Part shown: in pieces, positions 5,435 to 41,537 of the stretch
Position numbering within the stretch: position 1 is the stretch's first letter
How the letters are laid out: the number at the start of each line of letters is the position of its first letter
NCBI RefSeq assembly: GCF_029607905.1
Contig: NZ_JAPHEH010000001.1
Location: 186,001-250,000 of the forward strand
DNA from: Thiovibrio frasassiensis
GTDB lineage: Bacteria > Desulfobacterota > Desulfobulbia > Desulfobulbales > Desulfurivibrionaceae
Direction of reading: 5' to 3'
Length of the DNA: 64,000 nt
Program-made: the position numbers and the translations under genes
Notes under the pieces: generated by a model
What the model saw: only the letters and a program-made list of their open reading frames with translations
What the model was told of the DNA's origin: nothing
The model's database searches: none

Positions 5435-5638
5435 GTGCCTACACCCGCATCAGAGCGGCCAAACTGCCTGGCCTGCCTCCACTTCTACATCACCCACGAA
5501 GCATCGCGTCCATACGGCTGCAGGGCCTTGGGCTTCAAATCCCTGCAGTATCCCTCAATGGTGGTGTTTGCCAGCTCCGGCATCCATTGCCAGGTTTTTT
5601 CCGCGAAAAACCGGCGGACGCAAACCGAGCATAAGTAA
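5435..5638 (+). CDS. Small conserved cysteine protein
   Basis: 67 residues with a GTG start preceded by GAGG. The sequence contains CLACLHFYITHE, PYGCRALGFKS, PSMVVFASSGIHC and a terminal lysine-rich tail. The four cysteines (CxxC, then two single) suggest a metal site. The pattern CxxCxHFYIT...PYGCRxxGFKS...SSGxxCxxF resembles a small conserved hypothetical family I have seen in anaerobic proteobacteria; no function is known to me. It follows the activase by 5 nt and should be the last gene of the lptFG-activase run. Confidence 0.65.
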   Translation: MPTPASERPNCLACLHFYITHEASRPYGCRALGFKSLQYPSMVVFASSGIHCQVFSAKNRRTQTEHK

Positions 5639-8187: not shown

Positions 8188-8262
8188 GGCGGCGTAGCCA
8201 AGTGGTAAGGCAGTGGTCTGCAAAACCATTATTCAGCGGTTCAAATCCGCTCGCCGCCTCCA
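8188..8262 (+). tRNA. tRNA-Cys (anticodon GCA)
   Basis: 75 nt with acceptor arms GGCGGCG (8188-8194) and CGCCGCC (8252-8258), discriminator T and encoded CCA. The anticodon loop is CTGCAAA, giving GCA, and the T arm contains GGTTCAAATCC. A terminator follows at once. Foreign island 1 begins about 130 bp downstream. Confidence 0.95.
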
Positions 8263-8390: not shown

Positions 8391-8596
8391 TTGTATTGCT
8401 CCTATTTGTCAGGTAGACAGATAACATCCCGACTATTTTTAGCCGGAATTATATAGCTCGCTCGATAACACCCCCATACGGGGTGGATAGGTAGCTATTT
8501 AAGCAAAAAATACCCAGAAATTGCCCAGAAAAATCAATTAAAGGGCCAAAAATCGAGCCGAAAAAAACAACTCGAGCTAGCTCGATAATATTATTG
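8391..8596 (+). repeat. ~206-bp structured repeat, copy R1 (candidate recombination site)
   Basis: Nearly identical to 39550-39756. Conserved blocks are tcaggtagacagataaca at the left end, tagccggaattatatagct, the hairpin caccccCATAcggggtg, and at the right end the palindrome cgagctagctcg followed by ataatattattgtta. A central stretch of about 45 bp is variable. The similarity with the other copy stops just after the GTT core that begins cassette 1. The left end contains cagataac, the reverse complement of gttatctg at the right boundary. Together with the preceding terminator, it accounts for the 360-bp gap between the tRNA and the cassette gene. Confidence 0.75.
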
Positions 8597-9424
8597 TTAT
8601 CTGCCTAATCAATTTTGGAGAAAGATATGCCGATAGACGATTATCACGGAGAAACATTTGTCGCCTTTGTCGATATATCTGGCTTTAAAGCTTTGATGAA
8701 GAACAGAGAGGATGCGTACAAGGCTTTGAGTAGATTCTATCAAATTGGCTACGATGTTTTAGGCTCAGAAACAAACAGGATAAATCCTAACAGAGTTGAT
8801 GGGATTTTTATTTCTGACTGTGGCGTACTGTTTTCACGATGCAATGGACAGGATATTGAAAACCCTCGAAATCAAGTGATTGCTCTGGGACACCTTCTTG
8901 AAATAATAGAAAGTATTTCAAAACGGATGATAGCTGATAATTTTATGCTTACAGCATCAATCTCTTTTGGACAGTTCGATTATCATGAAAGAGCAAATTT
9001 TGTTGGAATAGAAAAAAACCTCATGCTTGGGAATGCTTACCTAGAGGCATATTTAGATAATGAAGTAGGAAAACCAAAATTGGAACCGGGGCAATGTCGC
9101 ATTGTTAACCATAATCAAGACAACAACCTTTTTACTTTAGTTGAAGCAAGTGACGCCCCGCCATTTAATAGAGTTGTTAAAAATCAAAGAGACTCAAAGC
9201 ATCTCTACTTTTACTGGATGGTTCCGTCCGAGAATGAAATTGATAATTTTACTCAAAATTATAAAGATGCCTACAATCAAAAATACAGTGGCATGTTAAA
9301 AGCCCTAAGAATGTTTGCAAATAATAATGACGTCATCAGATAACAAACGCTTAGAGAGGGACGCGGTAAACTTATGCGGCGCTGACGCGGTCAAGTTCAT
9401 TGGCCGCGCCCCTCAAGCGAAGCG
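8597..9424 (+). mobile_element. Integron-type gene cassette 1
   Basis: The cassette starts at the T after the G of gttatctg (8596-8603) and ends at the G of the gcgttgc core (9424) of its attC. The first bases ttatctg are the exact reverse complement of the R'' box cagataa at 9337-9343, the expected relation in a cassette formed by attC recombination. One gene fills the cassette; its stop codon lies inside R''. Base composition is visibly more AT-rich than the flanking genes. No integrase gene is in the window. Confidence 0.75.
8627..9343 (+). CDS. Nucleotide-cyclase-like protein (cassette 1 cargo)
   Basis: 238 residues from ATG 8627, which has GGAG 6 nt upstream. The N-terminus VAFVDISGFKALM (about residues 11-23) resembles the metal-binding start of class III nucleotide cyclase domains. 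FISDCGVLF (about 64) aligns with the second acidic site, and TASISFGQFDYHE followed by GIEKNLMLGNAYLEAY (about 120-150) with the C-terminal part of that fold. The domain stands alone, without transmembrane or receiver parts. Stand-alone cyclases of this type can belong to Pycsar-like antiviral signalling, but no TIR or membrane effector gene is next to it, so that role is speculative. A degenerate, non-catalytic domain is also possible. Confidence 0.5.
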   Translation: MPIDDYHGETFVAFVDISGFKALMKNREDAYKALSRFYQIGYDVLGSETNRINPNRVDGIFISDCGVLFSRCNGQDIENPRNQVIALGHLLEIIESISKRMIADNFMLTASISFGQFDYHERANFVGIEKNLMLGNAYLEAYLDNEVGKPKLEPGQCRIVNHNQDNNLFTLVEASDAPPFNRVVKNQRDSKHLYFYWMVPSENEIDNFTQNYKDAYNQKYSGMLKALRMFANNNDVIR

Positions 9425-9430
9425 TTGCGG
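9337..9430 (+). other. attC site of cassette 1 (VCR-like)
   Basis: The site begins cagataacaaacgc and ends gcgttgc. Imperfect hairpin arms are aacgctt-aga-gagggacgcgg (9347-9367) and ccgcgcccctc-aagcga-agcgtt (about 9403-9426). The layout aacaaacgc...gagggac...gcccct...gcgtt is that of the Vibrio cholerae repeat class of attC. The stop codon of the cyclase-like gene (9341-9343) lies inside it. Confidence 0.75.
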
Positions 9431-9440
9431 AAGAAATGAA

Positions 9441-9869
9441 ATGAGGCTCTGGTCGATTAATCCAAGCTATCTAGACTCGAAAGGCCTTGTTGCCCTTTGG
9501 AGAGAAGCCCTGCTTGCCAAAAACGTACTGGAAGGCAAAACAGTCGGATACAAAAACCATCCACAATTGGTTCGGTTTAAAAGCACCTCAAATCCGGTTG
9601 GTGCTATTGCGAGCTACTTGAGGGCAATTGCAGAGGAAGCCGAGAGCAGAGGATACAACTTCGACAAGAGTAAGATTCCAAACAAAAGGATAAACAGTAA
9701 AATTATTGTTACTAGCGGGCAGGTTGATTACGAATTCAATCACCTGTTAAACAAACTTAAGTTCAGAGATCCAGGCTTGCATGAAAGTATGCGCGGTTCC
9801 AAAAGAATAAGAGTTCACCCGTTATTTACTAAGGTTCGTGGCAATGTTGAAAATTGGGAAGTTATTTGA
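9441..9869 (+). CDS. Pyrimidine dimer DNA glycosylase / endonuclease V (DenV-like)
   Basis: 142 residues from ATG 9441 (MRLWSINPSYLDSKGLVALW). The family hallmarks are all present: LDSKGLVALWREALLA, KNVLEGKTVGYKNHPQLVRF and AIASYLRAIAEEAESRGYNF. T4 DenV has 138 residues. The enzyme cuts the glycosyl bond of UV-induced pyrimidine dimers and nicks the abasic site. It starts 10 nt after the VCR-like attC of cassette 1, so it is either the next cassette or chromosomal sequence at the insertion point. I see no attC after its stop. It is more AT-rich than the host genes. Confidence 0.85.
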   Translation: MRLWSINPSYLDSKGLVALWREALLAKNVLEGKTVGYKNHPQLVRFKSTSNPVGAIASYLRAIAEEAESRGYNFDKSKIPNKRINSKIIVTSGQVDYEFNHLLNKLKFRDPGLHESMRGSKRIRVHPLFTKVRGNVENWEVI

Positions 9870-38977: not shown

Positions 38978-39050
38978 ATATAATTCTTGAATTGCTCCAT
39001 GGCGTCAGGTAGACAGATAACTTTTCGGCTATTTTACGCCGGGACTAAAT
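38978..39050 (+). repeat. Partial copy R2 of the ~210-bp repeat
   Basis: It shares atataattcttgaattgct (38979-38998) and then tcaggtagacagataac with copy R3, and a weaker match through tattttacgccggga. The hairpin and the GTTA right end of R1/R3 are missing, so it is the left third of the element. It precedes the 138-residue gene. Confidence 0.65.
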
Positions 39051-39117
39051 TGCGTGGACAGCTGACACATCAGAACTTTTTTGAAATTATATGAATTCAA
39101 CGAATAAGGAATTGGAC

Positions 39118-39534
39118 ATGGGCAGGGAAACAGACTCGGAACTGAATACTTTTATTGATGAATGGGAAGAAACGCCTGAAAAAAACAGAGAGGTGTTTAC
39201 GCGTTTGCGGGAATACCTCGGCAAAAAAGAAGGTGTCACTCTCCAGTTCATAGCCCGGCCCGGAGTCACCTATTCTCTCCGGGCTGTTCATGCCGCCCAG
39301 AAAAAAAGATCTCTTTTCGTAATGGTTGACGTGATTGAGGACAACCCCAGATGGCTTTCCGTCTGCTTTTACGGGGAAATGATTACTGATCCGGAAGAAA
39401 AAGGCGACGTTGTTCCCGGAGGTCTGCTCGGTGAAGATGCTGTCTGTTTCGACATTGCAGAACGGGATGAAGAACGTATCCGCTATATCGAGGTCCGCCT
39501 CGATGAAGCCTGCCGAAACGCCACGAAGGAATAA
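39118..39534 (+). CDS. Conserved hypothetical protein between direct repeats
   Basis: 138 residues from ATG 39118, with AAGGA 7 nt upstream; ATG 39091 is possible but has no ribosome-binding site. Acidic and soluble: DEWEETPEKNREVFTRLREY, then GVTLQFIARPGVTYSLRAVH, VMVDVIEDNPRWLSVCFYGE, and ERIRYIEVRLDEACRNATKE at the end. I do not recognise a function. It sits between repeat copies R2 and R3 and may itself be the cargo of an older cassette. Base use is close to that of the host genes, unlike cassette 1. Confidence 0.6.
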   Translation: MGRETDSELNTFIDEWEETPEKNREVFTRLREYLGKKEGVTLQFIARPGVTYSLRAVHAAQKKRSLFVMVDVIEDNPRWLSVCFYGEMITDPEEKGDVVPGGLLGEDAVCFDIAERDEERIRYIEVRLDEACRNATKE

Positions 39535-39549
39535 GCAAGGATATAGTTC

Positions 39550-39756
39550 TTGGATTGCTCCATAGTGTCAGGTAGACAGATAACATCCCGATTATTTTTA
39601 GCCGGAATTATATAGCTTGCTCTATAACACCCCCATACGGGGTGGATAGGTGGCTATTTAAAAGAAAAAATGCTCAGCATACGCCCAAAAAGGTCCATAA
39701 AAGGGCCGAAAATCGAGCAGAAAAAAACAACTCGAGCTAGCTCGATAATATTATTG
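39550..39756 (+). repeat. ~207-bp structured repeat, copy R3 (candidate recombination site)
   Basis: Counterpart of 8391-8596. Same tcaggtagacagataacatc left end, same caccccCATAcggggtg hairpin and same cgagctagctcg palindrome followed by ataatattattg. The match ends where gttagcc starts cassette 2, against gttatct at the other locus. The variable central block differs. Confidence 0.75.
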
Positions 39757-39784
39757 TTAGCCACCTTATCCCCTTCTTATAGCC

Positions 39785-39919
39785 ATGCCCACCAAGACTG
39801 CCGGATGGCTGCTCCAATTCGACGAAGATTGGCGCCTTGATCTGATTCAAGACATAGTGGAAGGTGGCCTGAAGCGGTGCCAAAACAATGTGTTCTGCGA
39901 TGAAAGCTGGCATATCTGA
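39785..39919 (+). CDS. Possible 44-residue leader protein ahead of the FRG gene
   Basis: ATG 39785 to TGA 39919 encodes 44 residues (begins MPTKTAGWLLQFDEDW, ends CDESWHI). The stop overlaps the start of the FRG gene as TGATG, so translation could be coupled. It starts 28 nt from the cassette boundary, where the first gene of a cassette normally starts. No ribosome-binding site is obvious. It might alternatively be the N-terminal part of the FRG protein separated by a frameshift. Confidence 0.4.
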   Translation: MPTKTAGWLLQFDEDWRLDLIQDIVEGGLKRCQNNVFCDESWHI

Positions 39920-40965
39920 TGCTCATTGAACAAGGCAAGCGCCTTCTCTCTGTGATGGGGTATGCGTACTCATTGATGCCGATGAATTTTCCTGACGATG
40001 AATCGTGGATTAACCGTTATGGCATCGTGTCTGAGCTTGGAATAGACCTGCTGACACCGGTTGCGACCTCGGCTGGCCGCTACCGTTTTATGCCTGGCCC
40101 AGAGTTCTCGCCAAGGCTTTATCGTGGGCAGAACAAGTTTTACCCAAGGTGCAGGCCTTCAATCTTCAGGGGGATGAGTGACGTTGATGCCCTTTACTGG
40201 GTAGCCAAGAGCATCGAACTTTCAGCGGTGATGGATCGTCACCCGGCAACAAGTGATTTGATGGCGTATCAGATTGAAGGGCTGGATTTTGCGCTGAGTA
40301 TTGAGGCCATTGCGCAGCATTACCAGTATCCAACGCAACTACTGGATTTTTCCCGGTCGCGAGATGTGGCGATGTTCTTCGCAACCTGTGTATCCGATCA
40401 AGCGGGGGATGCCTTTTCGCCTCTCCAATCTGGTGTCGCAGTCCTCTACACGGTGAATTTGCGGGAACTGATTCTGCAGCGTGGAGGGCAAAGCAGTTTC
40501 TTACCGCTAGGGCTGGAGCCGCTGCCTCGACCTGAAGCGCAACGCGCACTCGCTTTGCGCTTGGGCCGGGGTGAGAACCTGAACGATATGCCATGGGTAC
40601 AGCACCAGAAGCTTGAAATCACACCAACGCTTTCTCGACACTACTTTGAAATGTTCGATGGTGGGAAGAAGTTGTTCCCGGATAACCCTTTCGACGGTCA
40701 CATTGCGGCGTTACGCACCAACCGCACCTTGCCCCTGCAAGCCCTTGAGTTTGGCATTGAACAAGGACTGCTGCCAGCGCACCCGGAGGGCGTTACTGGC
40801 GCGCGTAATGCGCTGAAGGCCGCCGGTTATACCGTTGAATACCGTGCTATCGATATTGACGAAAGCGTGATGCAGGCTGCTGCGGACGAGTGGGCAGTGC
40901 GAAAGTTGGATTATTTCAGCCGTATTCGCATACGCGGGGTAGCTGACCATATGGTGATTGAGTGA
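39919..40965 (+). CDS. FRG-domain protein (cassette 2 cargo)
   Basis: 348 residues. The FRG domain is recognised from LYRGQNKFYPRCRPSIFRG (near residue 57) and EAIAQHYQYPTQLLDFSRSR (near 130), followed by DVAMFFATCV, matching the family pattern (FRGQ...PS...HYxxPTxLLD...ALFFA). The domain is of unknown chemistry and is frequent in mobile and defence-associated genes. No membrane segment is seen. The start codon overlaps the 44-residue frame. The attC begins 60 nt after the stop. Confidence 0.75.
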   Translation: MLIEQGKRLLSVMGYAYSLMPMNFPDDESWINRYGIVSELGIDLLTPVATSAGRYRFMPGPEFSPRLYRGQNKFYPRCRPSIFRGMSDVDALYWVAKSIELSAVMDRHPATSDLMAYQIEGLDFALSIEAIAQHYQYPTQLLDFSRSRDVAMFFATCVSDQAGDAFSPLQSGVAVLYTVNLRELILQRGGQSSFLPLGLEPLPRPEAQRALALRLGRGENLNDMPWVQHQKLEITPTLSRHYFEMFDGGKKLFPDNPFDGHIAALRTNRTLPLQALEFGIEQGLLPAHPEGVTGARNALKAAGYTVEYRAIDIDESVMQAAADEWAVRKLDYFSRIRIRGVADHMVIE

Positions 40966-41025
40966 TCTCGGTTTCCTTCGGCATTGAAGCGTATCGAGAA
41001 AGCATTATGAACTTTCAGCAAGAAT

Positions 41026-41092
41026 GGCTAACCCATCATTCCACCGGACCTGCGCGAAAAATCGCGCAAGCCGGTGAATTCAGACGTTAAAC
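41026..41092 (+). other. attC site of cassette 2
   Basis: It runs from ggctaac (R'') to gttaaac (R', GTTRRRY consensus). Internal arms are ttccaccgg / ccggtgaa and tgcgcga / tcgcgca around a short AAAA loop. The layout is that of classical ~60-70 bp attC sites (cattccaccgg...ccggtgaattcagacgtta). Confidence 0.85.
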
Positions 41093-41120
41093 AATGACCT
41101 TGTATGAAGGAAAAACAAGA

Positions 41121-41537
41121 ATGACCCTGGAAGCCCTCTGGACCCAACTGGCAGAAATCGAAGCCAAGTCCGGCATGCACTGCGGCCGTCCCGGCAAGTG
41201 CAACGCCGACTGCTGCCATCCCTCCATCATGGGCGGCGTGCCGGGCGTGACCCCGCCGGAGGCAGAATTGATCAATGGTTTTTTGGCACAGCAGAAGGGA
41301 TTCCGCTTCTATGAGGCGGGCGAAGATGGTTGCAAGTTCCTGGGCAAGGACGGGCTCTGCCGGATCTATCCGGTCCGGCCCATCGACTGCCGGGTCCATT
41401 TCTGCAAAGAAAACTCGCTGGAAAGCCAGCCCAACCCCGAGATCGTTACCCTGGTGGCGGAATACCATGCCCGCCACGAAGCGGCGTTTATGGAAACGGA
41501 GCTGATCGATGCCTGCCGTTTTTTAGGGGAACCGTAA
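41121..41537 (+). CDS. YkgJ-family cysteine cluster protein
   Basis: 138 residues from ATG 41121, with AAGGA about 9 nt upstream. Cysteine pattern CGRPGKCNADCCHPSI near residue 22, then CKFLGKDGLCRIYPVRPIDC (about 71-90) and RVHFCKEN, as in the YkgJ/UPF0153 family of zinc- or iron-binding proteins. The start lies 28 nt past the core of the cassette 2 attC. ATG 41094 is in frame but would start inside the attC boundary. It most likely belongs to the host chromosome. Confidence 0.85.
   Translation: MTLEALWTQLAEIEAKSGMHCGRPGKCNADCCHPSIMGGVPGVTPPEAELINGFLAQQKGFRFYEAGEDGCKFLGKDGLCRIYPVRPIDCRVHFCKENSLESQPNPEIVTLVAEYHARHEAAFMETELIDACRFLGEP

Follow-up and report, generated by a model that had tools for sequence, protein, structure and literature searches.

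The window analysed here, a stretch of 64,000 nucleotides, contains two copies of a repeat, each with a different gene behind it, and raises the question of what kind of element this repeat is and how different genes came to stand directly behind it. The two copies (Table 1) share 88% identity across 206 bp (E = 1.3e-69), and nine matches to the repeat were found in the window's genome. The last base alike in both is the G of a GTT triplet, at 8596 in copy 1 (GTTATCT) and at 39756 in copy 2 (GTTAGCC), after which the sequences diverge. An end of similarity at the GTT with unlike cassettes behind it had been proposed from the sequence alone, and both junctions in the window bear it out, as the alignment of copies does for the proposed layout of two conserved blocks on either side of a more variable centre. 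The left end had been placed at 8391 in the sequence-only reading; the copies described there are real, but the homology of copy 1 runs further leftward, to about 8315, and this overlooked extension consists of decayed, minus-strand coding sequence of an integrase (intI). The inverted repeats that had been pointed out are present as well, as a 14 bp palindrome (TCGAGCTAGCTCGA) and a CACCCC/GGGGTG hairpin, but their folding is only weakly conserved. ATAAC/ATAAT motifs at fixed spacing, recurring 44 and 120 bases apart in the alignment of copies, suggest putative integrase-binding repeats beside the simple site.

Table 1. Features of the two repeat loci in the window, named according to the attI reading; sites A and B are those of the comparison between species
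Feature	Position	Strand	Remark
tRNA-Cys, host anchor of site A	8188..8262	+	
intI remnant of copy 1, first ~29 codons	8315..8404	-	TAG in place of the start codon; frame shifted
attI copy 1 (site A)	8391..8596	+	last base is the G of the crossover GTT; site common to four species
ATAAC motif 1, candidate accessory IntI-binding core	8421..8425	+	motif position in alignment
ATAAC motif 2, 44 bp from motif 1	8465..8469	+	motif position in alignment
Presumed simple site ATAATATTATTG^TT, crossover after G8596	8585..8598	+	
Gene cassette 1	8597..9424	+	GTTATCT at 8596 is the exact reverse complement of AGATAAC at 9338
Cassette 1 gene, ~238 aa	8627..9343	+	no Pfam match
attC of cassette 1	9338..9430	+	R'' AGATAAC, R' GTTGCGG; bottom-strand hairpin z=-2.9
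Truncated attI of site B, 5' third only (partial third copy)	38987..39053	+	orthologue in G011 (L028/L137)
intI start remnant of copy 2 (MEQSKNYIL...)	39507..39563	-	
attI copy 2 (site B)	39550..39756	+	
Gene cassette 2	39757..41086	+	GTTAGCC at 39756 is the exact reverse complement of GGCTAAC at 41026
Cassette 2 gene, FRG-domain protein	39919..40965	+	PF08867, E=6.9e-12
attC of cassette 2	41026..41092	+	R' GTTAAAC; bottom-strand hairpin z=-5.2
Host CxxCxxCC gene, right border of site B	41094..41537	+	86-88% identical in L122, L137, L140

A single attC was found behind each repeat copy in the window by the attC scan, that of cassette 2 being read by eye. The first seven bases of each cassette are complementary to the start of its attC, as is expected of sequences that adjoin in the circular cassette. 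The exact seven-base core complement was present 0.1-2.6 kb downstream in 21 of 35 copies, with 4.6 ± 2.0 expected from the shuffled-core control (maximum 12 in 2000 shuffles), and most of these positions head textbook attC-like hairpins. The first ORFs start mostly 10-60 bp past the core and usually end near the attC where one was found. Among approximately 37 first-cassette proteins there were no pairwise blastp matches at 1e-3, and unlike sequences after the GTT, as anticipated, were the rule among the copies compared, some copies being empty. The copies thus have the G^TT crossover followed by cassettes that bear their own attC at the far end, and the junctions and attC matches bear out the earlier proposal of an attI-type receptor that serves both cassettes and ends at the crossover. 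The attC of cassette 1 is followed directly by a pyrimidine-dimer glycosylase gene (9441-9869), for which no attC of its own was recognised.

The link to an integrase gene was provided by a related genome, G015, where an intact 410-residue integron integrase is encoded at C9:330565-331794 (minus strand) with its start codon inside a copy of the repeat at 331740-331833 (plus strand). This is the one locus at which the repeat was found beside an intact intI, and the contig ends inside the repeat. The sequence-only reading had suggested looking for copies next to intI genes, and here the gene diverges from the repeat. Since the intact intI starts inside it, the repeat corresponds to the span from intI start codon to crossover, that is, to attI, and its left end is, to judge from this homology, the start of a divergent intI gene. 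A new class of receptor, which had been suggested earlier, is not needed: the length of the repeat is that of an ordinary span from intI start codon to crossover, which is about 200-300 bp in known attI sites and about 311 bp in attI2 (PMC12901181). A second candidate for an intI adjoining the repeat, on contig C139 of G009, was dropped; its integrase fragment sits on the cassette side. We therefore consider it highly probable that the repeat represents the attI region, here standing without its integrase, of a family of chromosomal integrons in this Desulfobulbaceae/Desulfurivibrio-like genus. The reading is based on the observed homology to an intact intI, the matching attC sites, the orthologous positions, the empty and occupied orthologues described below, and the loss of intI where attI is kept.

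A profile search of the window's genome (2.84 Mb, three contigs, 95% complete) detected no IntI. TIGR02249 gave partial sub-threshold matches only, the best scoring 85 bits where the cut-off is 265, in ORFs that are XerC/XerD-like, and a complete integron with a linked functional intI was not found there. All loading in this genome could therefore predate the loss of intI. The window copies retain just the first 0-30 codons of intI; the remnant of copy 1 is 72% identical to the G015 gene over 89 nt (E=4e-7, blastn) and was matched by tblastn as well. The cognate intI is intact only in G015 and partly so in G007, and near 5557-5586 of a G007 locus (L097, contig C10) the orthologous intI N-terminus is cut by a sequence resembling the end of an insertion sequence (TGTGTAAAGAATTTTGTGTAA). 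The remaining stubs are longest at site A (84-87 nt), shorter at E, F and G (43-44 nt) and shortest at B and C (15-25 nt). At six loci (L110, L120, L121, L126, L136 and L144) on three chromosomal sites the remnant ends at the same base (nt 43-44), hinting that one truncated progenitor may have been copied.

Grouping of the copies by their 900-base left flanks resolved orthologous sites A-G, at least seven loci common to several species. Site A, at tRNA-Cys, was found in four species, site B in eight and site C in seven, with D, E, F and G as further sites. The right flanks are syntenic too, and between the flanks lie the attI and unrelated cassettes of differing length. At site A the repeat is present in four species with different genes behind it; a related genome that lacks it (L047) has only about 470 bases at this site. 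Site B carries an attI without cassette in G006 and G010, unlike sequences in G000, G005, G007, G002 and G004, and lacks the second attI altogether in G011; the CxxCxxCC gene at its right border adjoins attI, cassette or unfilled site in L122, L137 and L140. No clean target sequence or duplication emerged from the comparison with empty sites, and site B against G011 gave no clear duplication. Most of the relatives compared are draft MAGs. Between species, the intI stub region of site C is mostly 33-73% identical (93% in one close pair), whereas block 1 of the attI is 87-96% identical and the last 34 columns, containing the core, are 100% identical; these values exclude G010, which shows greater divergence across the whole of this site (76-82% in block 1). 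Such a pattern points to upkeep of the attI, either by selection or by exchange among copies. In a tree, the copies group partly according to site, and the forks are weak. Genes resembling defence proteins (FRG, TIR, SIR2, DUF4062, DUF3800) are found among the first cassettes at sites B, C, F and G. Two loci from different genera, L130 (G023:C53) and L091 (G009:C139), have left flanks that are 100% identical over 900 bp, which would reflect either a recent transfer or contig contamination.

The search for the repeat covered 258 genomes. Of the 17 that belong to the genus, 13 have it; beyond the genus, copies were found in a single genome from another genus of the same family and in one further family of the order (G045), with a weak match in G232. 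Sequence searches of plasmids and phages gave no match. The genus contains at least three other IntI classes (L092, L093, L100), and these also have orphan attI sites with 0-40 intI codons. Hotspots are common to the attI classes: an L092-class attI occupies site G of G011, and L092-like remnants lie at the tRNA-Cys loci L045 and L051. At a site E locus (L109; G000:C1:681000-691000, about 2020-2080) a remnant of the class of the G011:C7 integrase (L092) stands directly upstream of a window-class attI, so that two attI classes are in tandem. At site G of other species, the loci L162, L166, L167 and L174 carry attI-like elements of other classes, which end in AACGTTAG or AATGTTAGG or match the L092 class.

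Three other identities for the repeat were weighed. A structured RNA or leader element, which the sequence-only reading had also raised, is a very unlikely identity. Copy 1 does fold better as RNA than its shuffles (z -3.2), but only tRNAs in the window matched Rfam and the consensus of 27 copies folds at just -3.2 kcal/mol (RNAalifold). Pairing of the inverted segments holds in 89.5% of cells, and their covariation is little beyond that of shuffles; both-sided changes numbered 4 against 2.0 in shuffles, which is not clearly above. The centre is deleted in L134 and L140 with the rest intact, and copies without it can still carry cassettes (L134/L035), L134 having a gene past its core. The weak fold bears equally on a very long attC, another earlier suggestion, to which we give next to no credence. 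An AAC near the left end, the GTT at the right end and inverted repeats within recall such a site, and AGATAAC of copy 1 is able to pair with GTTATCT; however, the ends of copy 2 do not pair, end-to-end R''/L''-L'/R' pairing is not conserved over the 27 copies, the left part of the repeat is the start of intI, and the true attC sites lie at the far ends of the cassettes (Table 1). A MITE-like transposable element that ends in GTT by chance, with genes captured alongside, would account for an interspersed sequence of about 206-250 bp in many copies, with a left end common to several sites and inverted-repeat segments. Yet that left end is integrase coding sequence and at the right end there is mostly a cassette junction that has a matching attC, no terminal inverted repeats exceed 4 bp (TAAC/GTTA), target duplication was not seen, and the positions are old and common to several species; we regard this origin as most improbable.

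A closer rival leaves the attI identity untouched and concerns the history of the copies, which might be the dead remainders of independent full integrons that lost intI by deletion, fossils with nothing acting in trans. The varying lengths of the intI remnants, and a cognate intI that is intact in one genome and partial in another, are what such decay could leave, and we hold it to be a possible though rather unlikely history. It does not readily explain why attI is conserved at 87-96% while the adjoining remnant and cassettes are not kept, or why three different sites have a common stub breakpoint. Orthologous sites moreover carry different cassettes in every species, though their remnants are alike between orthologues, and loading therefore went on past the species split.

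For the attI reading, the proposed course of events is that the attC of a cassette circle would recombine with the terminal GTT of the repeat (G^TT), each attI holding one or a few cassettes that would be read away from it. An IntI encoded elsewhere may load the sites in trans, or the loading may have been the work of an IntI since lost. The kept 5' end of intI may be retained for promoter reading into the cassettes, and selection or gene conversion may keep the sites intact. A consensus scan of the window class for a cassette promoter Pc stayed at chance level, with none above it; in the kept piece of the L092 class a TTTACT-17-TATCCT pair is readable by eye. A wider proposal is that of a distributed integron, in which many attI platforms that lack an integrase, placed at fixed chromosomal loci inherited vertically, would be kept by selection, loaded in trans by several integrase classes, and copied to new loci as truncated units of intI start and attI. 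We put the chances of this wider proposal at about even.

Like attI1, attI2 and the attI sites of Vibrio and Xanthomonas, the repeat occupies the interval from the intI start to the first cassette, terminates at G^TT and receives attC cassettes. Unlike the attI of sedentary chromosomal integrons, it occurs many times per genome, without intI and at several conserved loci. In Xanthomonas a single ancestral platform lies at ilvD, and the CALINs (clusters of attC sites lacking integrase) occupy conserved chromosomal positions, no attI being reported at them in the part of that work consulted (PMC12444791). CALINs, which are common, resemble the present loci in having attC cassettes without a linked intI, and their origin is debated between off-target insertion, intI loss and rearrangement (PMC8618304); the loci described here usually hold one cassette, each headed by a recognisable attI. 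By default, IntegronFinder 2 calls a CALIN from at least two attC sites without intI (PMC9024848), and one attC was found behind each window attI. Since the program does not detect attI outside class 1 and ignores a single attC by default (PMC9024848), loci like these would be missed. The attG sites are likewise genomic positions without intI that receive cassettes; as cited in PMC12444791, they are broadly scattered and are neither attI nor attC, unlike the present repeats, which occupy fixed loci, are copies of one another as attI by homology and include intI starts. In class 1 and 2 integrons, Delta-attI cassettes have displaced attI pieces beside cassettes, and these pieces are functional in IntI1 assays (PMC12901181); those pieces replace attC downstream of the gene, whereas the attI described here stands upstream, as receiver. 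No report of scattered integrase-less attI copies was found in the open-access literature.

The receptor is therefore of a known kind, and what is unusual is that this attI stands without its integrase and occurs many times, at positions that are conserved across species. Cassette loci without an integrase here bear a recognisable attI at positions common to several species, with complete turnover of the cassettes. These loci make it testable whether orphan attI sites remain active in trans and whether a single integrase serves many of them. If so, one genome could hold several independently expressed first cassettes rather than one array.
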